Assembly: GCA_027186245.1 (NCBI GenBank)
Contig: CP114485.1
Span: 7,592,001 to 7,656,000 of the forward strand
Reading direction: 5' to 3'
DNA: 64,000 nucleotides
DNA from: Coriaria nepalensis
Taxonomy: Eukaryota; Streptophyta; Magnoliopsida; Cucurbitales; Coriariaceae
Numbering within the stretch: position 1 is the stretch's first letter; every line of letters starts with the position of its first letter. A model generated the notes under the pieces. The model ran no database searches. It saw nothing but the letters and a program-made list of their open reading frames with translations, and was not told the origin of the DNA. Below, piece by piece: positions 3,285 through 48,993 of this stretch. A program made the translations under genes and the position numbers.

Positions 3285-3399
3285 TAGTAAGGAGTTGGTC
3301 AAAAAATAATTTTATTATGATTTGTAATGATAGATAATTATGTCAAAAAATATTTCTAGCTTTAAAGATGAAAAAACATAAACTAAAATAAAGTCTTAA

Positions 3400-3900
3400 A
3401 AATAATGAAAAAAATACAATATTAAAATTATATTCTAATCTATAATTTCTAATGGGAGGTTGAATTATTTCCTATCCCATAATTAAGATCCACGTATTTA
3501 GATTTGAGATATATATTATCAAATATTATGTACATTTCTTTTTTATTCGTTATTTGATGTTGGTTTTGTTGATTTGCACATTCCTAATATTTGATGCATG
3601 ATAGTATCTCAACTATTTCAAATATTAATTTAGTTCTTATATTAGAAATGATTATCCCACTTATGCTAAATGTTAATTCTGAAAACAATGTTGAGACGGA
3701 GACGATCAAGACGTCATGTGCAAGTCGAGCTAGTATAAAAAACATTCTTGAATTATACTTCTACTATTGCAAGATATTAAAGTCATATGAAGTATCACTA
3801 CTGAAAAACTCTTCTTCTTGTTGAAAATATTTTATATCGTTTTCTTTAATCATTTATTTTGTTGATCGGATCGTCGAGGTCGCAAGTTGCTATCTTTATT
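3400..3900 (-). pseudogene. hAT dimerisation-region remnant (minus copy)
   Basis: The minus strand here aligns base for base, with scattered changes, to the plus-strand hAT C-terminus at about 6140-6650. For example, the sequence around 3850-3870 is the complement of the CTCGACGAT block near 6150. Stops interrupt every frame. The plus-strand open frame at 3591-3824 is antisense to this remnant and is not a gene. Confidence 0.65.
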
Positions 3901-4375
3901 TTTATAAACAATAAAAAATTCATGCAACTTTATATTTGCATTAGTGATTATTTTATCATAAGAAATATCTAATTCTGTACCTATAAAATAAATAACCTAA
4001 CTAAAACATTCATACTCAAGTCTAGGATCCAATAAAACTTTAAAACATTATAAAAGTGAAATTTATTTCTAATATTTAAAGTATTTTATTTTTATTTTTT
4101 CTATAATAGATGTAAAAACAATATATCATCATCATAAGTAATAAATATTTGAAAAATATCAATAAATTATGCAATAACTAACGGTGATGTAGGATAATAA
4201 ATATTCGATAAAAATATAATAGATTTGTAAAAAAATTTTAAAAATTTGTTAAATTTTTCAATAATATCCTAATCGTTTCATGCAATGTAGTAAATGTATT
4301 TTGTTTTAGATGAAAAAATATAGTAATCTTATCTTTATATGGAATAGTTTGTTGTAACATTATATAAGTCGAGTT

Positions 4376-4650
4376 TCATCTTATGTTTATATCAAGTGCA
4401 CACTTTCGAGGTTTTTTACTTGTATTCTTACATAATTTTCTAAATACAGTTATACGAGGATTAAAGCTAACTATGAAAGTTAATGCATCTCGAATATTTG
4501 TAATTTCATTTGTTACCAATTTCATACATACTTTGACAATGATGTTTATTATGATATAGACAGAACGTTGATGTAGAAATATTTCATCATTGTGCCCACT
4601 AAGTTGACCATCAAACAATGATATTGCCTTCATATTTATAGAAGTATTAT
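4376..4650 (-). pseudogene. hAT transposase central fragment
   Basis: An open stretch of about 85 codons on the minus strand carries the pattern IRDALTFIVSFNPRITVF followed by a Cys/Lys-rich segment and a DINIRW-like end. This resembles the region just before the RWNST-type motif of plant hAT (ZBED/RICESLEEPER) transposases. It lies at the position expected between the BED region upstream (about 5.1-5.4 kb) and the dimerisation region downstream (about 3.5-3.9 kb). It is not an independent gene. Confidence 0.6.
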
Positions 4651-5120
4651 TTAATGTTATTGATATTATATGTTATTTTTTTATCAAATTCATTCAAAAC
4701 TTTCATAATTATCATAAATATTTTCAGTATTATGTTAAGTCTCAATAACTCTAAAACCTATGATTTTTTTTTTCATATATCATTCAGCATTTAAATAATG
4801 ACTAATTACAGATAAATAATATTCCTTAGACTTTAAACTCCAAATATCAGATGTTAATGCAATAGCAACATGAGATGAACCTAATTCTATTCATAATGCA
4901 TCACATTATTTATTTAAACATGCTTCTATATCACTTGTAATTGTATTTCTACTTACTCTCTTAGAGGAAGGACAATATGAGTCCCGAATAAAGTTTTCAT
5001 AATATTTAGAGTCAGCAAAACCAATAAGCAAATCAAAATAAGTAATCAACTTAACAAAGTTATGTCTCGATCTCACTTCGTTATATGACCATATAGAGAC
5101 TGAACTATCAGGTTGAAAAT

Positions 5121-5430
5121 TTAATTAAATTTAAGTTGTACTATTACGGATGTGGGATTATGAATGCATTTATCTTTATGATGTTTTAAGTGAGTAATTC
5201 CACCTCTCCCGAAAGCAGTTAGTGTTTTTTTGCGTACTTTACATATAATATATTTTTTAATTTTTATCATGGTTATTTGGCTTGTACAAATTGTCAAAAC
5301 AAAATCAAACTTTTGACGTTGTCTTTTTGCGTTTTGTTGAAGCAATTATACTCGCTGTAGTTGTTTCTTCATCGTCGATATTGACCTCATCCTCGTCTAT
5401 ATCCGGAAAATGACTATCATCCAATTTCAT
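5121..5430 (-). pseudogene. hAT transposase N-terminus with BED-type zinc finger (broken)
   Basis: A minus-strand start near 5430 opens an acidic segment of about 40 codons that runs into a stop. The homology then continues in another frame into a segment containing CKVRKKTLTAFGRGGITHLK followed by HKDKC. This fits the C-x2-C ... H-x3-5-[HC] layout of a BED finger, with the second Cys of the first pair replaced by Arg. BED fingers bind DNA in hAT transposases and in host proteins domesticated from them. The frame break and the lost ligand mark this one as decayed. Confidence 0.65.
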
Positions 5431-5822
5431 ATATTATGTTCTATAAAATTGCAATTTTGACTATCCTCTGAAATCATGCATGATATTCAAGTTATCTATT
5501 TTCTAGATTATTAAAAAAAATAGATATTAGAATTAATTAGAAGATAAAATGAAAAAAAAAAATGATAATAAAGATTAAAACACATTACAACAAATTAGAA
5601 AAATTTAACCAACCTTAAATTTGATTTTGGAACTTGAGACTTGAGAGTCAAAACTAGATAATTTAGATTTCAGACTAGAATCAGAAATTGTAAAATTGAG
5701 ACTTTAAAATAGTAGAAACAAAAGAAATATAGAATAAGAATAGAGAGAATTGAGACTTGTAAATTGTGATTTATGAAGATGATTTTGAGGTATTTATATG
5801 AAAAATAATAAAGGGAAAAATC

Positions 5823-6766
5823 TGAATTGTTTTACAATTTGACTGCTTCACCGTTAGTTATTGAACAATTTGTTTATATTGTTCAGATATTTATTCCTCA
5901 TGATGATGTTGTTGTTTTTAAACCTATTGTAGAAAAAATGAAGATAAAATACTTTAAATATTGCAAAGAAATTTTACTTTTGTATTATTTTGGAGTTCTA
6001 TTAGGTTCTAGACTTAAGTATGAAAGTTTTAGTAAAATTATTTCTTTTATAGGAAGAGAATTAGACATTTATTATGATGAACTAATCGCTAATACAAATA
6101 TAAAGTTCCATGAAATATTTGTTGTTTATGAAAATAAATATAGCAGCCTCGACGATCTGATCAACAAAATGAACGACCAAAGAAGGTGATACAAAATATT
6201 TACAACAAAAAGAAGAGTTCTTCAAGTAGTGGTTCTCCATAATACGAGAAGTTTCATAAATACCTTGAATCTCCAGATGATAAGGATGAAGATGAATTTA
6301 ATATCTTGTAATGGTGGAAGTATACTTCAAAAGGGTTTCATATATTAGCTCGACTCACACATGACGTCTTGACCATCTCCGTCTCAATAATGTCTTTTAA
6401 ATCAATATTTAGCATAGGTGAGAGAATCATTTCTGATAGAAGAAATAAATTAACGCATGAAATGGTTGAGATACTATCGTGCATCGGAGATTGAGAATGT
6501 GTAAATCAGCAAAACCAATATCAAATGACGGATAAAAAAGAAATGTACAGAGCATTTGATCATTTATATCTCAAATATGAAGCTCCAAATTATGGGGTAA
6601 TAAGTAGTTCAACCCCTATTAGAAAATAGAGATTATAATGTAATTTTAATAATGTATTTGTTTTTCTTATTTTCTTATGAGTCATTCTTAAAGTTATTTT
6701 GACGGAACTATTTATCATTATAAAATCATAATAAAGTTTTTTTTGGCCAACTCTATATTACCTCCA
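5823..6766 (+). mobile_element. Truncated second hAT copy, plus strand
   Basis: This is a 3' part only of a hAT element, in the opposite orientation to the 3285-5800 copy. Coding resemblance starts abruptly near 5823. It continues through an open frame to 6189 (with PRLK-like and FIGREL-type patterns) and, after frame breaks, into a C-terminal dimerisation segment with WWKYTSKGFH near 6312 and SIFSIGERIISDRRNKLT near 6400. The non-coding tail to about 6766 matches the outer edge of the first copy. No 5' half is present. Confidence 0.7.
5827..6498 (+). pseudogene. hAT transposase C-terminal half (broken)
   Basis: An open frame of about 120 codons (5827-6189) is followed, after stops and a frame change, by the hAT dimerisation domain (about 6309-6495), which ends in a natural-looking stop after ILSCIGD. 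In the superfamily this domain mediates transposase multimerisation. The N-terminal BED finger and most of the catalytic core are absent, so no activity is expected. Confidence 0.68.
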
Positions 6767-6939
6767 CTTATCTGGCTTTAACATGAAAATCATATCAGAA
6801 CACCTGTGCCTGATTTACAGAGTCTGTTATAAAACAAAGAGTACCCTGATTCCTGAGAGATAGCCCCTTCCACAACAAATTAAGCCGGGATAAACAACTC
6901 TCTTCATTGCGAATCCAGAAAAAATGAGGTAGTAGTTCC

Positions 6940-7640
6940 TCAGATTACAAAATGGAAGGATGTAAAGTACCATGAGAAATGGATCTCGGAGCAAGCAGTG
7001 CCTGAGAACAAGGTAAGATAGAGAAATCTATCCCACATCACCGAGCGTGGGGATGAGAGTGTGGAAATAAGCTTTTCCACGGGTAGAAGGATCAGCTTGG
7101 GAGAAGTCGGCCCCTCAGTCACTAGAGTGGCAAGTTCTAGACATTCCACAACGTCTATACCAGAGCATCTCGAGAGCTTGCGAAGACAAGAGGACTTATA
7201 CCAACCCTAGTACATAGTGGATTCACCTACTCCATCTTTAGAAGCAGCCCCGGAGAGAAGAGGCTCTCCGACCATGTTAGAAATGGGATACGCTCCTAGC
7301 CAAAGTGACCTCCTGGTACTAACCGCACAGGATAATCCCTGTCTACAGCAAGGGATTGATAATCTATATAAGTGCTAGAAAAACAGCCTCAAGAGAAACT
7401 GGTTCGAGAATATACTCTCAAAAGAAGAGTAGAAGTACTGGAAAAATGCTTTTAACCAGTACATAGAGACCTTTGGAAAGTCATACGAGGATAAGCTAAA
7501 GGTCCTCACAAGGACCAATAAGTTTGACCTTTTTGATGGCTGCCAAAAGGTTTTGCCAGAAAAAGCCTCGCTTACCCAGACTTTGAGAATGACTCAGAGT
7601 CGATCCTGGAAATAATCAATCATCCAGACAAAAGGGATAT
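6940..7640 (+). pseudogene. Pararetroviral polyprotein segment upstream of coat region
   Basis: One plus-strand frame across this stretch is mostly open but broken by several stops. It reads like a hydrophilic linker rich in Ser, Glu and Lys and ends in an aromatic/charged block near 7450-7550. No counterpart exists in the minus-strand copy, which is truncated before this point. I place it in the same polyprotein only from its position; no specific domain is recognised. Confidence 0.4.
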
Positions 7641-7875
7641 ATTGAGGTCCTTTCAAAGGCTAGCAAGCGGCGAAAACTACTGCTCAATGTTAAGCCAAGC
7701 TCAGCAGACTTCCAAGAGTGAAATAAAGGCAGTAGTACATCCGCCAGCTATGAACCTCGAACTCCAGCTCGAAGATGGAATAAGTCTGGATGCAACCCCC
7801 TTTAAATGAGAAGAAAGGGAGGTAATTAAGGTAGTAAATCAGATTACTACTCAAGTTAATTATTCTAACCTGCAT

Positions 7876-8970
7876 TTGCAAACCATTGGAAGTCAGCTAA
7901 ATAGGGTAGAAGCGACAATGAGTTCAATAGCCACCACCAAATCCCCTCCCATAAGGAGAGCTGCAGCCCAGCCAGAGGTCCCTGTTATTAAACTACCAGA
8001 CCACGTACAATTAGACTGGTTAGCAAAGAAAGTGACCAAACGAATGCTCGAAAAGCTAACCAGCAGGTTAGAGAAATTAGGAATAAAAGAATCCGAACTC
8101 CAAGCCATCGAAGAAGAATCCAGGGAAAAAATAGACCCCTAGCTAGAAAGGATAGGTTGGAGAAGAAAGGGTCCAGAAAAGGCGTACTACCATCGCCCTA
8201 CCCCAGTAGATGTTACGTTTGAGGAAAGCCATCACTACGATCTTATGGCCTTTACTGGTAAGGCTATCACATAATTGAATCTAGATGGAATGTCATAATA
8301 TCAAATCTGGCATATGGCTTCCCACATGATGATGTTCGCAGAAGCCTGTAGGCTGCATGAAAAGGGTGCTTCAGACGCGAACATAGCCCAAGTCATGATA
8401 TGTTTGATTTTCGGGACAACTAAAGGGCTGGTGGGATTTTGCCCTCAGCGATGATGATAAGTATAGGATCATGAGTGCCTCTAAAGAAATCACAAGAGTC
8501 GAGAACAATCAACAGGTTCAAACAGCCGTATCAGATGCGGTAAATACTTTGGTATATGTTATTACTCTATTTTTCTGTGGAAATAATAATAGCAGGGTAG
8601 CAAAAACCTATGAACAACTAATAAGGCTTAGGTGCCCAGATCTATCCCATTACAAGTGGTATAAGGATGTTTTCCTTACCAAGGTCCTCCAACGACCAGA
8701 CTGTAATGCTGAATACCGGAAGCATCATTTTGTTGCAGAACTCCCCTAACTCTTCGCCACTAGGGTCACAGATAAAATCAAGGTAAATGGTTATGTCCCT
8801 TGGAATAACTATACTTATGGTGAATTATCTCAAGCGATAGAAGAGAAAGCAGTTCAACTTTGCAATGATATCCTATTCCGTTCTAAGCTCGCCAAACAAA
8901 AGCTAGAATGGAGAAGAGCGCTAAGTGATGTTTGCGAGCAAATGGGATTAAACCAATTGCAGGCCAAATT
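7876..8970 (+). pseudogene. Pararetroviral coat-protein-like region (plus copy, broken)
   Basis: An open frame at 7876-8142 (hydrophilic, with a Lys/Glu-rich helix-like end) is followed by a conserved block at 8471-8749 containing LSHYKWYKDVFLTKVL. Homology resumes beyond the stop at 8749 to about 8970 in a basic stretch. I recognise the WYKDVF-type block as the coat-protein domain of plant Caulimoviridae-like polyproteins. Compared with the minus-strand copy (12351-12911) this one has extra frame breaks, for example near 8400-8420 just before the 8471 frame. Confidence 0.62.
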
Positions 8971-9061
8971 AAGAGGTAGAAAGAAATCCTCAAAATGAAT
9001 CAAGAGAAGAGGAATCCTAAAGGAATAAGGAGATAGGTATAAACCCAAAAGGAGAAAGAAC

Positions 9062-9514
9062 TTGGGAAAGGCTAGAGTGAAAGGAGAAGGCTCTTCATTT
9101 AAAAGGAAGAGAATTCCTGTTTGCTTCAAATGTAGCAAGCCAGGGCACTATACAGACCAATGCAGAATGAAGGAGAAAATTAACAAACTCTCCATTGATG
9201 AAGGATTGAAAATAAGCCTTTGCGATATTCTGCTAGAGAGCTCAGAGTCTGAAGAAGAAATAATGATCTTACAAATAGAGAACTCATCCGAATCCTCCTC
9301 CTCAGAAAGTATGTCCGATTGTGAATGTGGAGGAATTTGCCACGATTGCTCCATAAATACAATAAAGGAGATAAATGGGTTAAGCATCAATGTACTTACC
9401 CGTGACGAAGAAGACATGCTGGAAATTGTAGACAACATCCCCGACAAAGAAGCAAAGCTTAAGCTAATAAAATATCAATACAGGGCGACGCTAAAAGGGA
9501 AAAGTCCCATTTAG
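9062..9514 (+). pseudogene. Pararetroviral zinc-knuckle region (plus copy)
   Basis: An open frame of 150 codons carries a CCHC knuckle, CFKCSKPGHYTDQC (C-x2-C-x4-H-x4-C, near 9122-9163). It lies after a basic stretch and before an acidic Ser/Glu stretch ending about 9520. A knuckle after the coat domain is the nucleic-acid-binding end of gag- or coat-like proteins in retroelements and Caulimoviridae. The frame opens without an ATG, so it is a surviving fragment of a longer polyprotein and not a gene of its own. Confidence 0.68.
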
Positions 9515-9839
9515 AGCACAAGATCGAGGAAAGTACCTCGGCCATCAGATACTCCATCTCAGAAATTCAGCGAAGACATGCTAAACCAAAAGGGTCATCT
9601 TCAAGGAAGGAAACTACCCTAGAAGATCTAAAAAGGGAGATAAAGGAATTAAAGATAATCTGAAGCGAAGGATGACAGACCTATAAGCTATTGAAGAAAT
9701 TCATTGGGAATCCCTCACGGGATGGATTGAAGAAGGGAAAGAAGATCTTGCCACCACAAAAGGCGAGGAAATGAATATATTCTATCTCGTCAAGAATGTA
9801 TCTGGATTAATAAGATAGATAGGGTGATTAGCCAAAAAT

Positions 9840-10420
9840 GGTATTATCTAGTGACAATAGTGGTTAATAGAGAATACACCCTGAAAATAGAGGCTCTAAT
9901 AGACTTAGGAGCATACTTGAATTGCATTAATGAGAGAATGATTCTCTCGAAATACTTCTCTAAAACAACATAGATTCTAAATACAGCAAATGATACTAAG
10001 CTATTAATAGAATATAAGTTGTCCGATGCTACAGTATGCAATAGCGGTATTTGTTTGTAGATGTCTTTTATAATGGTGAAGAATATATTGGAAAGAGTCA
10101 TCCTAGGAAATCCGTTCCTACGCATGCTTTATCCCATTCAGCAAATAAATGATGAAGGGATAGTTGTGGAAATCCAAGGCCACAAGCTCAACTTCACCTT
10201 CTCTCAAAGGCCTAAATACCACAAAATCCCAGTTAAAACAGAAGGAAAAGCTCCCTCTCTCCCTCCAGGAAGAAGCAACCTCCAGAAGAATAGAAGCTCT
10301 CCTAAAAACTCCTAAGATTCAAGCAAGGATTCACCACCTTGAATTGAAGTTGAAGTCTGAGATATGCTTAGAAGTCCCTAACGCATTTTGGAGAAGAAAG
10401 CAGTGTGAAGTAAGTCTGCC
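9840..10420 (+). pseudogene. Retropepsin-like protease region and beyond (plus copy)
   Basis: The frame reads IEALIDLGAYLNCINE near 9886-9933, the position of the D-[ST]-G active-site motif of retroviral-type aspartic proteases. Here the middle residue is Leu, so the motif is damaged. Stops follow near 9973 and 10060. A second open piece (10061-10315) continues the homology, with frame changes, towards the reverse transcriptase. The matching motif in the inverted copy reads DSGAD (about 11285-11299), so the damage in this copy arose after the duplication or was not shared. Confidence 0.58.
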
Positions 10421-10541
10421 CTACGAGCCTGATTTTAAAGAAAAAAGCATCCCCACTAAGGCTTGACCAGCAGCCATGAATGCATAACTCCTGGCAATCT
10501 GTAAGAAGGAAATTGAGGACCTTCTAGCCAAAGGACTTATA

Positions 10542-10690
10542 GTTTATCACTAACCGGGGTGCTCCTCTCTCGAGCTCCGCAACATTCTGGACATAGAACT
10601 CCGTACAACTCCATGGGCTGGAACTTTTCCTTATAAGTCCTTTGGCTAGAAGGTCCTCAATTTCCTTCTTACAGATTGCCAGGAGTTATG
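10542..10690 (-). pseudogene. Start of pararetroviral reverse transcriptase (minus copy)
   Basis: The minus strand encodes CKKEIEDLLAKGLI, then SSSPWSCTEFYVQN, then RGAPRLVIN. These are the first conserved blocks of a Caulimoviridae-type reverse transcriptase, ending before the catalytic aspartates. The fragment stops at 10542, the junction with the plus copy. This is the best single piece of evidence that the element is pararetroviral. Confidence 0.68.
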
Positions 10691-10979
10691 CATTCATGGC
10701 TGCTGTTCGAGCCTTAGTGGGGATGTTTTTTTCTTTAAAATCAGGCTCGTAGGGCAGACTTACTTCATGTTGCTTTCCTCCCCAAAATGCATTAGGGACT
10801 TCTAAGCATATCTCAGACTTCAACTTCGATTCAAGGTGGTGAATCCTTGCTTGAATCTTGGGAGTTTTTAGGAGAGCTTCTATTCTCCTAGAGGTTGGTT
10901 CTTCCTGGAGGGAGAGAAGGAACTTTTCCTTCTGTTTTAACTGGGATTTTACCACATTAATATTATGGTATTTAGGCCT

Positions 10980-11390
10980 TTAAGAGAAGGTGAAGTTGAG
11001 CTTGTGGCCTTGGATTTCCGTGACTATCCCTTCATCATTTATTTGCTTAATGGGATAAAGTATGTGTAGGAACGGATTTCCTAGGATGACTCCTTGCGAT
11101 AGATTGTTCACCACTATAAAAGGCATCTGCAAACAAATACCGCTATTGCATACTGCAACATCAAACAACTTATATTCTATTAATAGCTTAGTACCATTTG
11201 TAGTATTTAGAATCTCTGTTATTTTAGAGAAGTATTTCGAGGGAATCATTCTCTCATTAATGCAGTTCAAGTCTGCTCCTGAGTCTATTATAGCCTCTAT
11301 TTTTAGGGTGTGTCATCTATTAACCACTATGGTCACTAGAGAATACCATTTTTGGCTAATCACCCTATTTATCTCATTTGTCTAGATACA
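10980..11390 (-). pseudogene. Retropepsin-like protease region (minus copy)
   Basis: A minus-strand frame (11270 down to 10980, with the homology starting upstream near 11390) contains the active-site-type motif DSGADLNCIN at about 11270-11299. A later hydrophobic block, GVILGNPFL, resembles the I-[IL]-G flap region of retroviral aspartic proteases. The D-S-G triad is kept here but lost in the plus copy. The piece is isolated by stops on both sides, so no protein is expected from it. Confidence 0.6.
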
Positions 11391-12062
11391 TTCTTTACCG
11401 GATAGAATATTCATTACCTCGCCTTTTGTGGTGGCTATGTCTTCTTTCACTTCTTCAATCCTTCCTAGGAGGGGTTCCTAGTGAATTTCTTATTTTGGGG
11501 AGGACGGAGTGCTGTCAAAGTTGTGAAGGTTGTCTATTGCTTCTAGGTCTGTCATCCGTCACTTCAGATTACCTTTAATTCCTTTATCTCCCTTTTTAGA
11601 TCTTGTAGGGTAGTTTCCTTTCTTGAAGATGACCCTTTTGGTTTAGCATGTCTTCGCTGAATTTCTGAGATGGATTATCTGATGGCCAAGGTACTTTCCT
11701 CGATCTTGTGCTCTAAATGGGACTTTTCATTTTTAGCGTCGCTCTGTACTAATATTTTATTAGCTTTTAAGCTTTGCTTCTTTGTCGGGGATGCTGTCTA
11801 CAATTTCCAGCATGTCTTCTTTGTCACGGGTAAGTACATTGATGCTTAACCCATTTATCTCCTTTATTGTATTTATGGAGCAATCGTGGCAAATTCCTCC
11901 ATATTCACAATCAGACAGACTTTCCGAGGAGGAGGAGGAGGAGCTCTCTATCTATATGATCATTCTTTCTTCTTCAGACTCTGAGCTCTCTAGCAGAATA
12001 TTGCAAAGGCTTCTTTTCAATCATTCGTCAATGGAGAGTTCGTTAATTTTCTCCTTCATTCT

Positions 12063-12107
12063 GCATTGGTCTTTATAGTGCACTGGCTTGCTACATTTGA
12101 AGCAAAC
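12063..12107 (-). pseudogene. CCHC zinc knuckle (minus copy)
   Basis: The minus strand encodes CFKCSKPVHYKDQC. All four metal ligands of the C-x2-C-x4-H-x4-C knuckle are kept. The Gly before the His in the plus copy is Val here. It sits in the same place relative to coat and protease segments as the knuckle at 9122-9163. Confidence 0.62.
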
Positions 12108-12350
12108 ATGAATTCTCTTCCTTTTAAATGAAGAGCCTTCTCCTTTTACTCTGGCCTTTCCAAAGTTCTTTCTCTACTTGGGTTTATACCCATCTCCTTG
12201 TTCTTATAGGAATCCTCTTCTCTTGATTTGTTTTGAGAATTTCTTTGTACCTCTTAATTTGGCCTGCAATGGGTCTAATCCCATTTGCTCACAAAAATCT
12301 CCCAACGCTCTTCTCCCTTCTAGCTTCTGTTTGGCGAGCTTAGAACGGAG

Positions 12351-12911
12351 TCAGATATCATTGCAGAGTTGAACTGTTTCCTCTTCTATCGCCTGAGATA
12401 ATTCACCATAAGTATAGTTATTCCAAGGGACAAAACCATTTACCTTGATTTTATCTGTCACCCTGGTGGCGAAGAGTTGGGGGAGTCCTGCAATAAAATG
12501 TTGCTTCCAGTATTCAGCATTACAGTCTGGTCGTTGGAGGACCTTGGTAAGGAAAACATCCTTATACCTCTTGTAATGGGATAAATCTAGGCACCTAAGC
12601 ATCATCAACTGTTCGTAGGTTTTTGCTACCCTGTTATTATTATTTCCACAGAAAAATAGAGTAATAGCATATACCAAAGTATTTACCGCATCTGATACGG
12701 CTGTTTGAACTTGTTGATTGTTCTTGACTCTTGTGATTTCTTTAAAGGCACTCATGATCCTATACTTATCTCCATCGCTGAGGGAAAAATCCCACCAACC
12801 CTTTAGTTGTCCCAAAAATCCACATATCATGGCTTGGGCTATGTTCGCATCCGAAGCACCCTTTTCGTGCAGCCTACAGGCTTCTGCGAACATCATTATG
12901 TGGGAAGCCAT
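12351..12911 (-). pseudogene. Pararetroviral coat-protein-like region (minus copy)
   Basis: This is the longest intact frame of the viral insertion, 186 codons. It includes LSHYKRYKDVFLTKVL and, further on, a YTYGELSQAIEEETVQLCND segment typical of this coat-like region. It extends across the sites where the plus copy is broken near 8400-8420 and at 8749. The frame then ends at 12351 with a stop inside what should continue into a basic stretch and the zinc knuckle. A plus-strand open frame at 12718-12924 is antisense shadow. Confidence 0.65.
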
Positions 12912-13333
12912 CTGCCAGATTTGATATTATGACATTCCATCTAGATTCCATTCTGTGATAGCCTTACCAGTAAAGGCTATAGGATCGTAGTGATGGCTTT
13001 CCTCAAACGTAACATCTACTGGGGTAGGGCGATGGTAGTACGCCTTTTATGGACCCTTTCTTTTCCAGCCTATCCTTTCTAGTTGGGAGTCTATTTCTTC
13101 CCTGGGTTCTTCTTCGATGGCTTGGAGTTGGGATTCTTTTATTCCCAATTTCTCTAACTTGCTGGTTAGTTCTTCGAGCATTCCTTTGGTCACTTTACAA
13201 GGGATTTATACACAACCCATTCAACATGCATCACTAGAAGCAATTTCAAAATATATGAGACATTGTAGCTTCATATTTGCATTATGTATGCAGCCACTGG
13301 AGGTGAAATCCCAACAATCCATTCCGACAAACA

Positions 13334-14090
13334 TGCAGTTCCTATTGAAGGCCTTAGATGACATATTTGAAGAACCACAACAATTACCATCGGCATGTGA
13401 GGTTGGCCATTATATTCCTCTCAAAGATGGAACAAAACTAATCAATGTATGTCCCTATAGGTATGCCTATTTTTAAAAAGTTAAAATTGAAAAACAAGTT
13501 CTTAACATGTTAAAATTGGGGCTTATACTACCAAGTACTAGTCCTTTTTCGTCTCCTATTTTGCTTGTTAAAAAATAAGATGGTTCATGGCTTTTTTTTA
13601 CTGATTATCGGGCCCCTAATGTTGTTACCATCAATATAGGTTTCCTATTCCAACAGTCGATACCATGTTTGATGAACTCCATGAGAGCATCTTATTTTAC
13701 TAAATTAGACCTACGAGCTGGCTACCATTAGGTACGAGTACAACTAACCAATATTCATAAAACTGTCATTCGTACTCACAACGGATATTATGAGTATCTG
13801 GCTAATGTCTTTTGGCCTTTACAATGCTCCCTCTACTTTTCAAGCCATTATGAACTCCCTATTCCACCCTTCTCTTTGTAAATTCATTTTAGTATTCTTT
13901 GATATTTTAGTCTATAGCCCCAATTGGAACATGCATCTTGAACATGTTAAGAAAGCTTTTGAAAATTTAAGACAACACAAATTTTATCTTAAACTCAATA
14001 AATGTGCCTTTGGACAACAAAAATTAGAATACTTGGGACATATTGTTACTGACCAAAGAGTTAAGGGTTGATCAAAACACAATTAAAGTC
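13334..14090 (+). pseudogene. Ty3-gypsy reverse transcriptase (broken)
   Basis: Recognisable blocks are PLKDGTKLINVCPYRY near 13420-13462, a PSTSPFSSPILLVKK block near 13532-13577, and then an open frame (13790-14071) with SFGLYNAPSTFQAIM. The catalytic site near 13895-13915 reads VFFDILVYS where active Ty3-gypsy enzymes have two adjacent aspartates (FDDIL), so one catalytic Asp is missing. Stops at about 13473 and 13576 also interrupt the domain. Confidence 0.8.
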
Positions 14091-14159
14091 ATGCTTGATT
14101 GGCCTCGACCTATTAATGTTTCAGAATTACGTGGGTTTTTAGGTCCTATATATAGTACA

Positions 14160-14660
14160 TAAAATTTGTTCGCGACTATGGGATCTTGGCTAGACCACTT
14201 ACTAATCTTTTACAGAAAGGCCAAGTTGGGTGGGCTCAAGAAGTTGAGACCTCCTTCAAACTCCTCAAGCAAGCCATGAATTCCACTCCCACCCTTGCTA
14301 TGTCAAACTTTCATGAGCCCTTCATTATCGCATCTGATGCTTCCACAGATGGAATTGGGGTGACGCTCACCCAATAAGGAAAGCCAATTGCCTTCATTAG
14401 CCGAGCCTTAAGAGTATCTAAATTAGCATGATCCACTTATGCTAAGAAAATGGTTGCCATTATTCATGCCATACGAACTTCGTATCCCTATCTCTTAGAG
14501 CAAAAATTATACATTTAAACAGATCAACGAAGACGTGGTCATACCTGAATAACATAAATGGGTTGCAAAGCTGTTAGGATATGATTATGAGATAATCTAT
14601 GAATCGGGAAGAGAAAATTTTGTTGCTGATGCACTTTCCCATATATGGAGCTCTCCCACT
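14160..14660 (+). pseudogene. Ty3-gypsy RNase H (broken)
   Basis: An open frame at 14186-14377 includes a connection segment (TNLLQKGQVGWAQE) and the first RNase H block, FIIASDASTDGIGVTLTQ, with the usual catalytic Asp. A stop follows at 14375. The homology continues past it, with breaks, to about 14640, where a DALS-type block ends the domain. Confidence 0.72.
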
Positions 14661-14678
14661 CTTAATGCTTTATTTATT

Positions 14679-15735
14679 TTGCAGGCTCAAATCTGGGATG
14701 AAATTAAGAAAATAGTTGTTGGACATGCTTATATGGAGCAAATCGGTAAGTTGGCCTCTAGTAAATCAGGTCTTCCCTACACAAGGCGTAACGGGTTAAT
14801 CCTATACAAAAACCGAGTGGTCGTGCCTACTAAGTCTCCTATCACTGCTCAACTACTATGTGAGTTCCATGACTTACCTCTTAGGGGCCACTCAAGTGTG
14901 CTTCGCACCTATAAATGTATTGCTCAACAATTTTATTGGCCATCTATATATCAAATGGTGCATGATTATGTTTCCTCTTATGATGTGTGTCAACGAGCTA
15001 AGGCATCCACATTGTCCCATGATGGCCTCCTATAGTCACTTCCCATTCCATGTCAAGTATGGGACGACATTACCATGGATTTTATTGAAGGGCTTCCACC
15101 ATCCAACGGCAAGAACACCATTTCTGTTATCGTCGACCACCTTAGCAAGTTAGCCCATTTCTTAGCCTTGGCTCATCCTTTTACTGCTAAGATTGTGGCT
15201 GAAAAATTCGTATAAGGTGTCGTTAAACTACACGGTATGCCAAGATCCATCATTAGTGACTGTGATTCGATTTTTACAAGCAACTTTTTGGCGTGAGTTT
15301 TTAAAATTGTCAGGCACCCAACTAAAGATGAGTTCACCTTACCATCCATAAGCGGATGACCAATTTGAAGTAGTCAATTGATGCATCAAGCAATATCTTT
15401 GTTGTTTCTTTCACCAACAGCCACATAAATAACATTCTCTTCTTCCTTGGGCTGAGTTTTGGTATAATACGGCTTATCATACATAGACTGACATGACGTC
15501 CTTTCAAGCTTTGTATGGTCGACCTCCGCCCATGATTCCTCACTATCAATTTGGCACCTCCTATATTCATGAAGTAGACCAAAATCTGGCCACACGTGAT
15601 GACATATTGCACCAGCTCAAGCTCAATTTACATGCGGCTTCTAACCACATGAAACAGGTAGCCGATTCAAAATGGCGTGACGTCGAATTCGATGAAGGTG
15701 ATCTTGTTTTTCTTAAACTCCACCTTTACCACTAG
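14679..15735 (+). pseudogene. Ty3-gypsy integrase (broken)
   Basis: A frame at 14679-15035 carries the zinc-binding part, with HDLPLRGHSS and later SYDVCQRAK, where the first Cys of the usual C-x2-C pair is Tyr. After a stop the catalytic core appears near 15050-15290 with TMDFIEGLPPS and SIISDCDSIF, showing two acidic positions. The third is not seen because of frame breaks. A last open piece (15493-15735) has the FQALYGRPPP block that follows the core. Active integrase needs the D-D-E triad, so this copy is dead. Confidence 0.76.
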
Positions 15736-15859
15736 CAAACAGTCTTCAACGGCCTCTCAGAAATTGGCTAGTAGGTTTTATGGTCCATATGTCATTGAGA
15801 AGCGCATTAGCAAGGTGGCATATCAACTCTGACTTCTTGCTAACTATCGCACCCATCCT

Positions 15860-16100
15860 ATATTCCATGTTTCCTTACTAAAAAGGAAGGTCGGTGATTC
15901 TTGTGCCCCTTGCCCTGACTTACCACCTGTCACTGATGATGGTGTCATTATTATAAAGCCCAAAGCAATCATGGATACATGTTGGATTAAAAGGGGTCCA
16001 AATTTATTGATGAAATCTTGGTCAAATGGAAACATTTCCCAATTGAGGATCTCATATGGGAGAATGCACATGAGCTCACGATAAGTTCCCTACATTAAAC
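15860..16100 (+). pseudogene. Chromodomain-like C-terminal remnant
   Basis: In shifting frames the sequence reads as FHVSLLKR-type and LVKWKHFPIEDLIWENAHEL-like blocks near 15865-15890 and 16015-16080. This is the usual integrase tail and chromodomain of plant chromoviruses, thought to steer insertion to marked chromatin. The minus-strand open frame over 15844-16071 is a shadow. Confidence 0.6.
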
Positions 16101-16117
16101 CTTGAGGATGAGTTTTC

Positions 16118-16130
16118 AGAAGGGGATGGT
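16118..16130 (+). other. Polypurine tract of the Ty3-gypsy element
   Basis: AGAAGGGGATGG-type purine run directly before the 3' LTR. In LTR retrotransposons this RNase H-resistant tract primes plus-strand synthesis and ends one to three bases before the LTR, as here. Confidence 0.6.
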
Positions 16131-24021: not shown

Positions 24022-27000
24022 ATGGGGAATAACGACAAGACGGCATTAGGTCGAGCTCTGGTGAAGCAGCACAACCAGTTGATTCAGAAAACCAAGGAAA
24101 AAGGTAGATTCTATCGGTCACAGCAATATACGGTTCTAGAATCAGTAACCGAGGTCAGTGACATTGACGCTATTATCGAACAAGCCGATGAGGCGGAGCG
24201 CCTCTTCTCCATGGACCACCCTGCCCCCAGTATCCGCATCGATCTGTGAGTTGTATTACCGGTTTTTTATTTGATGTTCGTTTACAAGTATCAGATGGTA
24301 ATTGACGGTTTGATTGAGCTTACTGTTCTAAAGTATATGGTTTGTTAATGTACACAGCCGTTAGACAACGAAATTGGCTTCAGTTTGAACCTTTTAAGTG
24401 TATAATTTGTTTAATTTCATGTGGTGGAGGAAGAGTAGTACAAATTTTCAAAGTTGTGCACTTATTTCTTTCTCGTTTCAAATTGGGTTGCAAATCTTTT
24501 CGTGCTTCCGTAGTGAGGGAAATATTCTAATTGCTTAAGCCTCGGGTCTAGGCTCACTTCATCAGTTTCATTGGTTATGAATGTTTTCTCCTTTTGATCA
24601 TTCTTTGTTTTTGAATACTTCAACTTTTATGTTTTTTATTTTATTGTCCTGGGCGTGTGGTCTTGTTTTTGGTATGTTTTTGTATGTATGCAGCCAATTT
24701 TTTAGACTTAATATTTTATAATTACCTTTTGCTATATAGATCTTTCTCTAATGTGGGATTATGGAAATGGGGATGGAAGCTTGAGCACTGGTGAATTGAC
24801 ATTAGAACGGAAGGAGGAAGAGTCATTGCATGCTAGTTGTCTCCGAGTCCCACGCAGGTTTCTCCTTTTCTCATTGGATCCACCTGTGCAATATATTCAG
24901 TTATCTGTGTAGTGGGACTAAGATTTTTGAATTGTTTCAGGCCACCTTGGAATGCTCAAATGACAGTGGAAGAACTTGACTCAAATGAGCGGCGAGCCTT
25001 CTTGTCCTGGCGTCGGGGCCTTGCAATGTTAGTTCTGACATTAGTTTTTAGCTTGTCTTGCTAAAATGAACACTTCTGAAAAACCCACAAAAACAGAGGA
25101 AGTGAAAATTTAATTAAGAGTTGAACAACGTGATCTTTACATTTTTCCTCCCTATTGTAGAGACATTAATGAACATATGGTTTTAATTGCCCTCCTCTTA
25201 CATTTTATGTCTTATGTAAAATAGTAACGTCAATGGAAGAGTGGGTCAATAAAGATTCTTGGGATAGGCTTTTTTTCTTGCTTCTGCAATGAGAATTGCC
25301 TCAAGCACTTGAATCTTCTCTTACTAGGACACAATTTATCCAGGCCAATATAAATGAAGAGAAATTATTGTATGCACCATGTGCATGGCCATGTGACACA
25401 CCAAGTACGATCATAATCTCAAACTTCACTTTCATACATCACATCACTTATGACATTTGTAGTTGTGATCGTACTTGGTGTGCCACGTGGCCATGTACAT
25501 GGTGCATATAAAAATCTCTCATAAATGAATAAGCTCGGTAGTGTGAAACTTCTCATCGGTGCTTTAGTGTATATTTCTTCTAAATTGATCTGCACACTAG
25601 TAAATGGATTTTATCATTTTATTAGCGGTTCCATGCTTGAATAAAGTGTTTGAACTTGTATATTATGATTGTTCCCTAGGTTGTACTATTGTAGTTTTTG
25701 CGCTTATTCTCATATTTTTGCTGCAGTCTTGAGCAGAATGATAAACTTGTCATTACCCCATTTGAGAAGAATCTGGATATCTGGAGGCAGCTTTGGCGAG
25801 TGGTTGAACGTAGCGATCTGGTAGGCTAAGTTGTCTTTACGTGGATTTAAAGTTCAGATGTAAATATTCATTAAATACTCTTATCCTTTATAGGTCGATT
25901 TATTCTGGTTCTTCAGCTTCTGTTCATGAATTCCCATAATCAATTAAACTCCTGTTGGACTTGCTATCCTTCATTTGTCAGGAATAGATTACTGAATACT
26001 TAGTAGTACCAGTAACTTGATGATGTCGTCTGTGGGGATACCCTAATAACCGCTTATATGATGTTCAGCTTTTGATTAACTAGGCACTGTTATTTTTTTT
26101 TCTTATCCTGTTGTACTGTCTATTCATGCTGATCTAATCTGAGATGTCCTTTTCAGCTTGTAATGGTTGTTGATGCTCGAGACCCACTTTTCTACCGCTG
26201 TCCCGATCTTGAGGTAGTAATTTACTCATCATTTGTTGAATACCTAAGACTCACCAAGTTACTGCTGCTTCCTATAGTTCTCAAATTAGTACCTTTATTT
26301 GCAAGATACTACAGTTGCAGTTTCTATCATTTGAAATAATACAGTGGTCATCCTGCCATTGAGAACCTCATTTTGAGGATTCAGATCAAAAACTAAAATT
26401 AGAAAAATCTATAGCTAGCTATTTGCTTTGTCTTGACATAATTTGGAAGTTTTTAAATGGCACTGTCATATTTCTTTTACTGTCTCCTACAAAAATCAAG
26501 ACAATTAATATTGTTAATAAGCCTTCTTGTTCCCTATTGGCCATACAAGTTATTTTGGTACTACTGATTGCTGTTGCAATATCGATATTACTGTTCTTAT
26601 TATTGAGAGAATACTGTGACAAGATCCGCACATACATAATTTAGCACCTGTTCCGAACCTACATCAAATACATGAGGATATACCGTAATCATATTTTCTG
26701 AATCTAAATTGCAGTTGCACCTAATGGCGACAGGGCACCATGTTTTCTTTTACTTAATCCTTTGAAATCTGGAAATAGTTCCTCTAAATATTGAACACCA
26801 TTAATTTTTTGCCTCACAGGCATATGCAAGAGAGGTTGATGAGCACAAAAGGACATTGCTCCTTGTTAACAAAGCAGACCTTTTACCATATCGTGTCAGG
26901 TTAGTATCTCTGTCATCGGGCATGTGCTTTTGTTCGATCAGATATCCAGTACAAGTCGCCAAGATTTGTAATAGCTTGGTGTTATCTACAGAGAGAAATG

Positions 27001-28141
27001 GGCACATTTCTTCTGCCTTCACAATATACTATTCCTATTCTGGTCAGCTAAAGCAGCTACAGCAACTCTCGAAGGGAAAATGCTTTCTACCCCATGGAGC
27101 ACACAAGACACCTCGCCATATGTGGAAGACCCTGATACAAAGATCTATGGCAGGGAAGAGCTCTTGTCTCGTTTGCAGTTTGAGGCTGAAGAGGTAGCCA
27201 AGATGAGAAGAAAAAAACCTTCCTTCATTGAGTCAGAACCATCAAACTCTAATTCTCATGATGGAAACAATTTTGAAAAATCAACAACACGAAACAATGT
27301 TATTGTCGGATTTGTAGGGTATCCAAATGTAGGAAAGAGTTCTACAATCAATGCCCTAGTAGGCCAGAAAGAGACGGGAGTCACCTCCACTCCTGGAAAA
27401 ACAAAGCACTTCCAAACATTGATCATTTCAGATGAGCTAACTCTATGCGATTGCCCCGGGCTGGTTTTTCCATCTTTTTCAAGCTCACGATACGAGATGA
27501 TTGCTGCAGGTGTATTGCCTATTGATCGAATGACCGAGCATCGAGAGGCCATAAAAGTTGTAGCCAATCGGGTCCCACGAGTAGTCATTGAAAGTACCTA
27601 TAACATCAATCTGCCTAAACCTAAACCATATGAGCCACAATCTCGCCCCCCTCTAGCTTCCGAGATTTTGAGGGCTTATTGTGCTTCACGTGGCTATGTT
27701 GGCTCTAGCGGGCTGCCTGATGAAACTCGGGCTGCCCGGCAGATTTTGAAGGATTACATCGATGGGAAGCTTTGGCACTATGAAATGCCCACAGGGATGT
27801 CCCTTGAAGAAGAAGAAAATGGTTTACAACAACCTGGGACTCTGCCACCTAGGTTGTCTGAAATGGATGAGTCGGATTCATCTGATGTGGAGAGCCTGCT
27901 GGAAATTGAAGGGGGAGGAAGTGGGCTTGTTTCTGAGCATGTGTTGGAGGACCTTAATTCGTTTGATATGCAAAACGGACTTGCAACTAAAAAACCGGTT
28001 GTCAAGAAGGTGACTGCATCGCACAAAAACCATAAAAAGCCACAAAGGAAGAAGGATCGGACTTGGAGGGTTGGAAATGATGGTGGTGATGGAATGCCCG
28101 TGGTTAGGGTTTTTCAGAAGCCGGTAAACTCAGATCCTTGA
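24022..28141 (+). CDS. LSG1: Large subunit GTPase 1 (LSG1), ribosome biogenesis
   Basis: Circularly permuted GTPase of the YlqF/LSG1 group. In yeast and plants it acts in the cytoplasm on late 60S subunits, promoting release of the export adaptor NMD3. Exons by GT-AG and frame: 24022-24245, about 24780-24857, 24941-25027, 25727-25820, 26157-26213, 26820-26899, 26992-28141; total 1770 bases, 589 residues. The N-terminus MGNNDKTALGRALVKQ is characteristic. The G motifs come in permuted order: VNKADLL (G4, end of exon 6), GYPNVGKSSTINALVG (G1, near 27320), DCPGL (G3, near 27449). The C-terminus is acidic then lysine-rich (KKPQRKKDRTWRV), as in LSG1. Exon 2 is the weak point: an acceptor at 24779 keeps frame, whereas the better-looking TATAG acceptor at 24740 leads to a stop. 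It lies upstream of BSL2 on the same strand. Confidence 0.93.
25371..25508. repeat. Foldback element in LSG1 intron 3
   Basis: A 44-45-base arm (25371-25414, starting TATGCACCATGTGCATGGCC) is matched by its reverse complement at 25464-25508 with only a few mismatches. The loop is 49 bases. This looks like a small MITE or a self-complementary insertion inside the third intron (25028-25726). The transcript of LSG1 would fold here into a stem of miRNA-precursor size. No target duplication could be fixed. Confidence 0.75.
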
Positions 28142-28609: not shown

Positions 28610-29460
28610 AGACATTTTAAGTGAAAATTTTTAAAATTTAAGTATAAATTATATTGAATACTTAAAAATTTTGGTATTTATAATGAAAATTAAATTTTAA
28701 ATTTAAATTATAATGAATTTCTAATTTCATTAAAATAGATAGAATAGTCGCATATATCATATGATTGTTAATTGATTATTAAAATTTCAAATTTAACTCA
28801 ACTTAAAAATTTTATTTATATGATTATCCTTTTTAATTTAAATTTAATATTTTTTTAATCTATTTTTAAAAAAAAAAATTATTCTCTATTTTCATCACAT
28901 CGGCCACCACCACTATCATTCACTGCCGCTACCATCACCCTCTCCGCTATCATTACAACCAACATATAAATTTAAAATTTAAAAATTAATTTTTCAATAT
29001 TTGAGAGATAGAGAGAGAAATAGAGAGAAAATAATTAAAATTTTAATATTTTTATATCGGCAGTGAAGATTGGCAATGGCAGTGGCCTACTACTTATATA
29101 AAAATTTAATATTTTAATATTTAAGAAATAGAGAAAAAAAATAATTACAACTTTAATATTCATATATTGGCTGTAAAGGTTGGCGGTAACGATGATAAAG
29201 AAGGATGGTGGTGATCGGTAATGTGGAAATAAAGAAGAAATAAATAAATAAATAGGTTAAAATTTTATTTAAATTAAATAGAAATAAAAATTTTAAATTG
29301 TATTAATTTAAAATCTAATAATAAATTAATGATCATATAATATGTATATAATTATTTTATCTATTTTTAACGAAATTTAAAATTTATTATAATTTAAATT
29401 TAAAATTATATATTTATTATAATTTTTATTAAATTTTGAGAATATATCTTAATTTTTCCA
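28610..29460. repeat. MITE-like foldback element, copy A
   Basis: An AT-rich element of about 850 bases with long imperfect inverted halves. The left half contains TTTTCATCACATCGGCCACC (near 28890). The right half contains its approximate complement (GGTGGTGATCGGTAATGTGG near 29207). AAATTTAAGTATAAATTA-like sequence near the left edge has an inverted match near 29400-29450. A diverged second copy in the same orientation lies at 31960-32830. It has no coding capacity. Confidence 0.55.
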
Positions 29461-30500
29461 AAATTTTATATTTCTTTCTTTTCTTTCCTTATTATTAACA
29501 AATATTTGAAACTAGGAGAATTTATTCAATACCGAACCCCAATTCAAAATTTCTTTGGTGATAAAAAATTTTGTCCATCCCTAATGAAACTTAATAGATT
29601 CAAAGTAGTTGAACATGTTTTTTTCCCCTTTACGGATTCACAGTTTTGGTAAAAGTCTGGATATAGCATTTTCTAGATTTTGATATATTTTAGTCATGTG
29701 ATAAATGAGAGTTTAGTTTGTACATATTTTGTATTTTGTTTTGTTCTATTTTGTCGTGAGCATATTAAGATCAACAAAGTAAAAATGCATCTTTCCTATG
29801 CATGAGTAATTTAATATGTATTCTACCAATTTAAAGTTAGTAGTAGTTGGACACTCTTACAGTTGGAACAAACCCACTTACTTACCAGTTCTATTTGTAC
29901 TCTTGCAGTGCGGTCATTATGCAGACACAACAAAATAACTAATAATAATAAATAAGCATTTGATTTGAGAGTCAAATGGGATTGCAAATTGAGAAAGAAG
30001 ACATCATATCATATCAATCACAGTTTTGAATTTGACATATCAACCTTATAAGAATAATACATTGTTAAGGTTTTTTAAATTGTATTTGGAGTAGAAATAT
30101 TGTTTATAATCTAATCAATAATTTTTAAATATATTTTTGATTGTGTTAACTTCATTAATATTAGGTTAACATAATTAAGAATATGTGATGCAAATGGAAT
30201 ATTGTTATATTTCATCCACCAACAAATTAATTGACTATATTTAGAAATTTGGGACTTGGGTAACGTGTTTTGACGAGATGTTACGATTTAAAGTGTGACA
30301 TAAATATATCAAATCATATCAAGTTTTTATTTATTTTTTATTTAACTTTTTGTGGGACTTTTCAAAATAATAGTTAAAGTGTAAATAAATGAAATGTTCT
30401 AAGTCTAAAAAATATTTTATAAATATAATTAAATGCATCTCACATTAAAAAAGAAGAAAATTTTCAAAACATTTATAAGTGATTGTAAAGAATTGGTATT
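29461..30500. other. AT-rich intergenic DNA
   Basis: I see no gene, RNA or clear repeat structure. The few short open frames have no conserved features. Confidence 0.45.
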
Positions 30501-31959: not shown

Positions 31960-32830
31960 AAATTTAGGAGAAATTGAGATAAATTCTTAAAATTTAATAT
32001 AAATTATAATAAATTTTTAATTTTATTAAAAATAAATAGAATAATAATGTATATGTAATATGACTGTTATATAATTATGAAAAGTTTAAATTTAACCTAA
32101 TTTAAAATTTATATTTATATTTTTATTCATTAATTTAAATTTAATATTTTAACTCGTATATTTTTTTTTTAAATTCTTTCTCCATTTTCATCACATTGGC
32201 CGCCACCATTCATTATCTGTCACTATCACCACTCTCTTCACCGTTGCTACCGTCAATCTCTACCGTCAATATAAAATTTAAAATTTTTAATATTCTAAAA
32301 GATAGAAAGAGAAAGAGAGAGGGAGAATTAAAATTTTGATATTTTTATATCGACAGTAAAAGTTGGTAGCAGTGATTGCGGAGTGCAAATATACAAATTT
32401 AATATTTTAATATTTAATAGATTAGAGAGACAGAAAACTTAAAGTTTTATATGATTTTTATGTCGGGAATGAAAATTATCAATAAGCAGAAAATGGTGAT
32501 GTAGCGGTGAAGAAAGATGGTGATAGCAATTGATATGGTGGAAATAGAGAAAAATAAAAAAAAAATAAAAAAAGTTTAAAAAATAAATTTAAAATTAAAA
32601 TTAAAATGAGTAAATATATAAATAAAAATTTTAAATTTAATCAAAATTTAAAATGTAGTACTAACTTAATAATTATTTGATATGTGTATAATAATTTTAT
32701 CAATTTTGAATTGAATTAAAAATTTATAATAATTTAAAATTAAATATTTATTATAATTATTAAATTTTATTTTTAATATTCATTTTATAATAAGTCGTAA
32801 AAATTTATTATAATTTCTCGCAAATTGAAT
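31960..32830. repeat. MITE-like foldback element, copy B
   Basis: This is a diverged direct copy of the 28610-29460 element. Shared blocks in order are TTTTCATCACATTGGCCGCC (near 32187), the AGAGAGAAAGAGAG stretch (near 32300), GATATTTTTATATCG (near 32338) and GGTGATAGCAAT (near 32519). Its ends are inverted: GAGAAATTGAGATAAATT near 31970 faces AATTTATTATAATTTCTC near 32803-32820. Confidence 0.58.
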
Positions 32831-42800: not shown

Positions 42801-43336
42801 ATTGATTCACCCCTTACCCCCTGCAATGTCATCACCTGAGGCATCACCTGAGCGCCACATAGAAGATACATGGATGCAGGTAACTTCAAAGCAATTTTCC
42901 AGCTTCAGGCAAATTTACTTTGAGCATTTTCTTTAACTGGAGTTAGGGAATTTGGAGTTTAGTATATATTATTCAGTGTTCCGAATGCTTTGCAAATTGA
43001 AAACACACATCTTCTGTATCCCAGTTTAACACAGTAATTGGAAAATTAATTTAATCCTCTATGGTGTATTTGGGTAAGCTGTGAAAATTGGTTCAGATAA
43101 ACTGGAATTAGGTAAGATTTTGTTAGATTATGTGGGTCAAAAATGATTTGTGTGTCCAATCTAGATTTTATTCTCAAATTGAATTCAAACTGGAGTTTAA
43201 GAAATTTACCAATAGTAATCCTCCTGTGCTGGTTCTCTTTTTTTTGGATCAGGAGCTAAATGCTAACAGGCCTCCAACACCAACTAGAGGTCGTCCACAA
43301 GTTGCAAATGATCGAGGCTCTTCAGCTTGGATATAG
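33804..43336 (+). CDS. BSL2: BSU1-like Ser/Thr protein phosphatase with Kelch repeats (BSL2/BSL3 type)
   Basis: Plant-specific phosphatase with an N-terminal Kelch propeller and a C-terminal PPP catalytic domain. BSU1-family members act in brassinosteroid signalling by dephosphorylating the GSK3-like kinase BIN2. Twenty-one exons by GT-AG and frame: 33804-34230, 35316-35376, 35454-35532, 35648-35727, 35810-35904, 35997-36096, 37113-37182, 37390-37491, 37576-37657, 38350-38529, 39194-39461, 39556-39793, 39907-40077, 40480-40718, 41293-41377, 41474-41572, 41662-41861, 41954-42029, 42523-42658, 42740-42879, 43253-43336; 3012 bases, 1003 residues. Kelch repeats run about residues 75-420. An Ala-rich linker with [11 protein letters not shown] follows. 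PPP motifs: [10 protein letters not shown] (exon 14), GDYVDRG (15), [10 protein letters not shown] (16), then [14 protein letters not shown] and FSATNYCG. All metal-binding residues are intact. The Gln-rich N-terminal extension and length favour BSL2/BSL3 over BSU1 or BSL1. Confidence 0.95.
34875..34978. repeat. 52-base tandem duplication in BSL2 intron 1
   Basis: A unit beginning AGACCTACACTTTGGTTG occurs at 34875-34926 and 34927-34978 with one difference (ACGGCC against ACAGCC). It lies in the first intron, well away from the splice sites. Confidence 0.9.
36707..36805. repeat. 34-base tandem triplication in BSL2 intron 6
   Basis: Units of 34, 34 and 31 bases (CTATCAACATGAAGGAAAAA start; the third lacks three bases) are directly adjacent. 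The intron (36097-37112) is among the longer ones of the gene. The flanks (GAGCCCCTTTTATAGGAGG before the array) look like part of an inserted repeat. Confidence 0.9.
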
Positions 43337-45900: not shown

Positions 45901-46444
45901 CCTGGTATAAAAAAGTAAACGATAAATTAAAAAAGGTGGTCAGTCATGATCTGAGATTCAAAAGTGCAGCGTGGTTATATACAAAGACATGAATAGTGCA
46001 AAAAGTGATTTAAATTGCATAATTTAAGGCTGGAAACCCAAACTCATAAAAAGTGGCTCTCAGAAAACGTGATTAAAAATGAAAAAAATGTAATTTAAAA
46101 TCTGACATAAAAAAAGGGCCCAAACAAAGTTGTCAGACCCCTGCACCGTGTTTTGTCTTTTAAATAAAATTATTTGTTTTTGACCTTTAATCCAATATAA
46201 TCAGAAGTGGCCAAGGTCGTGGGGGTAAAGAGCATTCCACATTCTAATACAAAAAAACAAAAATTTACCATCTTGAAGGAGCTTTTGACTGAGTAAACTA
46301 ATGCTGTTAACTAGATTGATCTTTTCAAATTTCAACGAGTAATTTGAGTGATAATTACAAGTATAGGAGGTGAATTCAAATATGAATCTCTCCACTTTCC
46401 TGAAGAATTGACCGATTTCTTCAAATTAATTAGGCCAACGAAAA

Positions 46445-47233: not shown

Positions 47234-47656
47234 TTTTCATAGTTTAAAAAGGATTTTTAGAGGTAAGTTTAATTTTTTCAAATAATTAATATTAAAGCTT
47301 TGTGATGAATTTTACATTTCAATTAAAGAAACCCTATTATGGAGATCTTATAACAAAATTGTCTCCGTTCAATTTATTAGGAAATTGGAAATGAGTTCAA
47401 TCTAGAGACTTCATAGTTTTTAAGAGACTAAGAAAACTTTATATGATATTTACCAATTAATATGGCTGGTTAAAGCCTCAATGGTTGCGTTGGATCATAT
47501 TTAGAACAGAAAAGTTGGTAAAATTGATATATAGATTTTTATGTATACATGAAAACCATTTATGTCATATCCCATTGATATTTCAAACCAAAGTATCATC
47601 TCTAGTAACATATTTGGATTGAAAATTAATCATACTTGGGGGATGTGACTTTATTC

Positions 47657-48967: not shown

Positions 48968-48986
48968 GAGTGTGGCGAATGTGGGA

Positions 48987-48993
48987 ATTTATA
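48987..48993 (-). promoter_or_regulatory. TATA-like box of the FAF-like gene
   Basis: Minus-strand CTCCTATAAATTCCC gives a TATAAAT core at 48993-48987. With the usual 25-35-base distance, transcription would start near 48952-48965, at or after the first ATG (48967). This affects which methionine is used. Confidence 0.5.

Follow-up and report, generated by a model that had tools for sequence, protein, structure and literature searches.

A stretch of 64,000 nucleotides of Coriaria nepalensis (contig CP114485.1 of assembly GCA_027186245.1, positions 7,592,001 to 7,656,000 of the forward strand; hereafter the window, whose own numbering is used throughout) contains a long inverted repeat built from two broken copies of one caulimovirid (plant pararetrovirus) segment. 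The locus is likely to be an old, rearranged caulimovirid integration in which the two copies were joined tail to tail and then decayed neutrally, and which would be a source of small interfering RNAs (siRNAs) only conditionally. Its three parts are as follows.

8029-10541, plus strand, 2513 bases: left arm, a degenerate caulimovirid segment running from the coat region (DUF7746 and a weak Caulimovir_coat_dom match) through a probable CCHC zinc knuckle and an aspartic protease to the start of the reverse transcriptase (RT), inside which it breaks off.
10542-10631, minus strand, 90 bases: spacer (loop), 30 RT codons of the right copy, fused to the point at which the left copy breaks off.
10632-13196, minus strand, 2565 bases: right arm, the same viral segment, in which pieces of the coat, protease and RT start are partly still open.

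Comparison of 8029-13196 with itself by BLAST gave a single minus-strand match of 5238 columns (89.2% identity with gaps counted, E=0). A repeat search recovered the same two arms as seven ungapped pieces that are 86-96% complementary. An earlier sequence-only reading had proposed a near-continuous inverted repeat of about 2.5 kb with a 90-base spacer, and the self-comparison confirms it. The same reading described 50 identical bases beside the spacer; the identity is there, but the perfect run is 74 bases long (another perfect run, of 79 bp, lies elsewhere in the arms). Its head-to-head arrangement has to be rejected. Coat, zinc knuckle, protease and RT start are ordered toward the centre on both sides and the frames of both copies run inward, so the copies stand tail to tail.

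Aligned as reverse complements, the arms differ by 191 substitutions over 2507 bases (7.6%, Kimura two-parameter distance 0.081), of which 129 are transitions and 62 transversions. Six internal gaps separate them (1, 2, 2, 3, 14 and 42 bases). The outer ends are unequal: the left copy reaches about 1.1 kb beyond its arm and the right copy ends at 13196. These differences bear on whether the palindrome is real. Palindromes are a recognised class of assembly artefact, and a fold-back or chimeric read might have produced the inverted copy. Such a copy would be nearly identical to its template, whereas here substitutions are found in every full 250-base block (11-27 in each of ten blocks), gaps reach 42 bases, and the arms end at different points and adjoin different sequence. 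The 7.6% divergence together with the unequal ends makes an artefact extremely improbable.

The viral identity of the arms, also proposed from sequence alone, is borne out by several matches. In the right arm, 12351-12926 matches DUF7746 in Pfam (1.3e-13, 51.3 bits, cut-off 27) and, below the cut-off of 27, Caulimovir_coat_dom (3.5e-5, 24.6 bits). The aspartic protease RVP is found in the same arm above its cut-off (9.3e-6), and the zf-CCHC zinc knuckle of the arms scores below its own (E 0.0045, 17.5 bits, cut-off 20.8). Piece 10689-10979, and piece 13198-13473 just outside the arm, have only Pfam matches far below cut-off. Over residues 7-52 (46 aligned), the minus-strand open piece 10527-10685 shows a gapless match (E 5.9e-5) to 8r0s_A, an 'Enzymatic polyprotein' of known structure, which we take to be the RT of cauliflower mosaic virus; taken alone, this 53-residue piece hits no Pfam family. 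The spacer corresponds to residues 19-48 of the piece and lies fully inside the alignment. The right copy therefore contains 30 more RT codons than the left one. An unrelated insert as the source of the spacer was considered and ruled out, because the spacer continues the RT of the right copy.

Related proteins are numerous. A first protein search returned three relatives with 41-42% identity, one of them from Prunus dulcis, and a profile search returned 703. Among the 120 of these that were listed, the named ones come nearly all from flowering plants, nearly all carry DUF7746 together with Caulimovir_coat_dom, and the highest identity is 52% (Jatropha). One relative, P0164, which has DUF7746 and a caulimovirid coat domain, comes from a 1336-base contig recorded as Salmonella enterica and is probably plant DNA contaminating a bacterial record. 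Three scans of IMG/VR gave 2, 21 and 53 pattern stretches and zero confirmed relatives in each.

Both copies are broken, as open stretches end and switch frame within each arm. RT is represented by its first part alone. The sole integrase match lies in an adjacent gypsy remnant (described below), and both viral copies lack most of pol. When seven viral and gypsy pieces were searched against the window with tblastn, the best match beyond the two arms had an E of 0.062; it is a weak hit of the zinc-knuckle piece (41 residues, 29834-29956). The domain and protein matches identify the locus as a widespread type of endogenous caulimovirid.

The left viral copy extends outward past its arm:

6884-8028, plus strand: outer part of the left viral copy, the region before the coat domain, with no partner in the right copy.

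In a comparison with 121 relatives, three of 19 plus-strand pieces of this part gave matches at E <=0.02 (6884-7018, 7022-7207 and 7810-8100). The first two match the caulimovirid relative P0124 in order, at residues 26-54 (E 2e-6) and 65-129 (E 0.011), and the third matches P0152 (E 3.5e-10). The frame 7810-8142 continues across the arm boundary at 8029. Controls from the minus strand (18 pieces) and from 4400-5900 (13 pieces) gave nothing below E 0.03. These matches show the outer left part to be viral from about 6.88 kb, with its limit placed approximately at 6.76-6.88 kb.

The two copies may have come together as follows. Two partial viral molecules, or one molecule plus an inverted copy of it, would have been nearly identical when they were joined tail to tail within the RT gene, during or soon after viral entry into the chromosome. 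They were probably united by end joining at a short microhomology, TATAA(G). The junction sequence TATAAG agrees with the end of the left copy and also with the conserved Tyr-Lys that the RT motif of the right copy should have at this point, which appears compatible with microhomology-mediated joining.

The near-identity of the founding copies is suggested by codon positions. Of 109 arm differences in four non-overlapping pieces of known frame, 42, 30 and 37 fall in positions 1, 2 and 3 (third-position binomial p=0.92). This sum excludes the left coat piece (8408-8746), which overlaps its right-arm counterpart; by itself it gives 7/8/8, and swapped in for the right coat piece it changes the sum to 38/28/28. 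Since there is no third-position excess, the copies were apparently nearly identical when coding ended. The same counts bear on a second origin, in which two different viral strains inserted back to back after separate infections. Two copies with different end points would fit such a history. Selection on protein during separate viral lives should, however, have loaded third positions, where only 37 of the 109 differences are seen, and a tail-to-tail joining of two strains at RT breaks 30 codons apart would be a coincidence. Separate infections are thus unlikely.

Subsequent decay fell in excess on CG sites. With each arm taken in turn as the reference, C>T changes affected 15/93 and 11/82 CG sites (13-16%) against 37/776 and 45/788 CHH sites (5-6%), with Fisher p values of 1.5e-4 and 0.015. 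These separate values are used because a pooled CG-versus-CHH test counts shared sites from both sides. CpG observed/expected ratios of 0.41-0.47 for the arms and 0.49 for the gypsy element compare with 1.31 for a glycosyltransferase gene of the window. By their sequence, the arms probably resemble methylated, silenced DNA that decayed neutrally and was depleted of CG. Substitution rates of 6.5e-9 to 1.3e-8 per site per year were assumed, and at these rates the arm divergence would correspond to 3.1-6.2 million years. Following the tail-to-tail joining, both copies would then have decayed for about 3-6 million years, losing CG and probably methylated, with silent chromatin as their ordinary state.

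Several points weigh against this history of joining and neutral decay. CHG sites show no clear excess of C>T changes (pooled p=0.11). The codon-position test stands without a positive control, the microhomology was judged by a conserved RT motif and not by the DNA of a relative, and the age depends on assumed substitution rates. Gene conversion between the arms could also lower their apparent age. Among the 250-bp blocks, the one with the fewest substitutions (11/250) adjoins the spacer, and another block has 12. For the 74-bp perfect run at the spacer, p is about 0.003 for a given end, with about 0.5 such runs expected anywhere in the arms.

A transcript crossing the centre was predicted to fold almost completely on itself. 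As RNA, 8029-13196 (5168 bases) has a predicted energy of -4168.5 kcal/mol and 2399 pairs, 2368 of them between the arms and 2362 in arm register. It contains 38 uninterrupted helices of at least 21 bp, together 1738 bp, the longest of 135 bp (G-U pairs counted). Controls of equal length folded far less stably (window 38000-43167: -1336.6 kcal/mol; right arm turned round: -1324.4 kcal/mol), and neither contained any helix of at least 21 bp. The sequence-only reading had predicted a duplex of about 2.5 kb from such a transcript, and the fold supports this as a prediction. Such a transcript could serve as a substrate for Dicer-like (DCL) enzymes. If the locus were transcribed across its centre, an imperfect duplex of about 2.5 kb could be cut by DCL2, DCL3 and DCL4 into siRNAs of 21-24 nt, which would target the locus itself and close relatives. 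No Rfam family reached its gathering score in the window, and no tRNA gene was found there.

There is no sign of selection for hairpin pairing in the arm transitions. Read as a plus-strand transcript, the arms carry 67 transitions that leave a G-U pair in place and 62 that abolish pairing (p=0.72). In a minus-strand transcript the two classes swap and the result is unchanged.

Maize Muk (Mu killer) is a transcribed inverted duplication of a mobile element whose long hairpin silences MuDR in trans. The locus described here resembles it in being an inverted duplication of this type, from which transcription would yield a long hairpin. Muk is transcribed and silences in trans, whereas here the hairpin is predicted from sequence.

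Comparable loci of caulimovirid origin have been published. In tomato, the TSAs (Valli et al. 2023, Mol Biol Evol, as described in the review PMC10377300 and in PMC12904150) are rearranged caulimovirid inverted repeats with dense 22-nt siRNAs that are able to degrade matching transcripts. In soybean (Jia et al. 2020, Plant Cell, as described in PMC10377300), inverted repeats derived from caulimovirids and transposable elements feed DCL2-dependent 22-nt siRNAs. DCL2-dependent 22-nt small RNAs from endogenous pararetroviruses are also described in tomato hybrids (PMC9124383), PMC12904150 repeats the idea that these elements confer immunity, and PMC10377300 also gives accounts of caulimovirid integrations that have been rearranged, duplicated and inverted. 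The words 'inverted' and 'hairpin' do not occur in the excerpted part of PMC8256270. A literature search on palindromic or tail-to-tail endogenous pararetroviruses (EPRVs) matched 1790 papers, and none of the 20 listed uses the term EPRV. Like the tomato TSAs, the present locus is an inverted repeat of rearranged endogenous caulimovirid pieces, and a hairpin could arise from its transcript. It differs in that the TSAs have mapped dense siRNAs and degradation of matching transcripts, while here the evidence is the DNA and its predicted fold, and in that the host is probably a rosid and not a nightshade. With the soybean repeats it shares the form of a long inverted repeat and a caulimovirid origin, but siRNAs and their dependence on DCL2 were demonstrated only there. 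Rearranged endogenous banana streak virus (eBSV) likewise combines, within a single locus, viral fragments duplicated in direct and in inverted orientation (as described in PMC10377300). However, eBSV is supposedly recent and is replication-competent, while the locus here consists of broken and incomplete copies and, judged by how far its arms have diverged, is millions of years old. By structure, it is a further case of the published hairpin-forming pararetrovirus loci, and the idea is not new.

In an alternative reading, the locus would be an active hairpin siRNA locus like the tomato TSAs, transcribed in some tissue, with its hairpin cut mainly by DCL2 into 22-nt siRNAs (with some of 21 and 24 nt) that silence related viral sequences in trans as a heritable antiviral memory. 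The near-complete predicted fold, with its long helices, argues for it, as does the occurrence of 22-nt siRNAs with like architecture in tomato and soybean (PMC10377300). Against it stand the pairing without a sign of selection, the finding that only 507 of 2492 left-arm 22-mers occur exactly in the right arm, and the failure to find a close viral target (52% best identity among the 120 listed proteins, no relative confirmed in three IMG/VR scans). Nothing in the viral sequence that remains was recognised as a viral promoter region, although no promoter search was made. An active locus of this kind, and siRNA production in some tissue, are possible but doubtful. An antiviral effect is much less probable still. 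It appears very unlikely that the locus is transcribed into an antiviral hairpin that acts in trans, in a rosid lineage beyond those studied so far, and that it still makes siRNAs derived from a virus that infected the ancestors of the plant a few million years ago.

If that antiviral hairpin were real, it would be a separate instance of a heritable memory of viruses carried by RNA. If siRNAs are made at all, the locus would offer an independent and roughly datable case for rearranged endogenous pararetroviruses as heritable RNA-based immunity. If it is silent, it is an ordinary viral fossil. The arms act as each other's clock and record how such a locus decays, that is, without codon bias, with a CG bias and without visible selection on pairing. 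Comparing transitions that keep wobble pairs with those that break pairing is a simple sequence test to tell maintained hairpins from fossils.

Beyond the right arm lies another mobile element:

13197-16120, plus strand: degenerate long terminal repeat (LTR) retrotransposon remnant of Ty3/gypsy type, adjoining the right arm; the part before RT is missing, and the right limit is approximate and was set by eye.

Pfam matches to RVT_1 (3.1e-13 at 13748-14071) and Integrase_H2C2 (5.8e-16 at 14553-15035) were found in it, and the order of RT before integrase assigns it to Ty3/gypsy. No second copy of its RT and integrase pieces was detected in the window by tblastn. The loss of the remnant's first part falls exactly at the viral junction; viral entry into the element and a later deletion are both conceivable.

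On the opposite side, a second inverted pair (3285-4192 / 5843-6760, 74.7% identity, about 1.65 kb apart) is more diverged than the viral arms and ends close to the start of the viral sequence. A weak match to a hAT-like RNase-H (E 0.018) lies in it, and inspection of its ends by eye showed no clear target-site duplication.

The rest of the window contains likely host genes. An uninterrupted frame at 849-2123 encodes a Core-2/I-branching glycosyltransferase (Pfam 9.7e-56). Of 853 related proteins, 120 were listed, and the top-scoring ones come from Cucumis (72% identity at 95% coverage) and from Morella, Humulus, Ziziphus and further rosids, so that the window is plant DNA from what is probably a rosid host. 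A GTPase with an MMR_HSR1 domain (26975-28138, plus strand, 1.2e-15) and a FAF (Fantastic Four) protein (47660-48988, minus strand, 4.2e-15) are likely host genes as well. Three AT-rich stretches (28632-29468, 31971-32767 and 46441-47234) match their own reverse complements at 62-65%, and the first two match one another at 65-70.5%; all three are probably low-complexity DNA.

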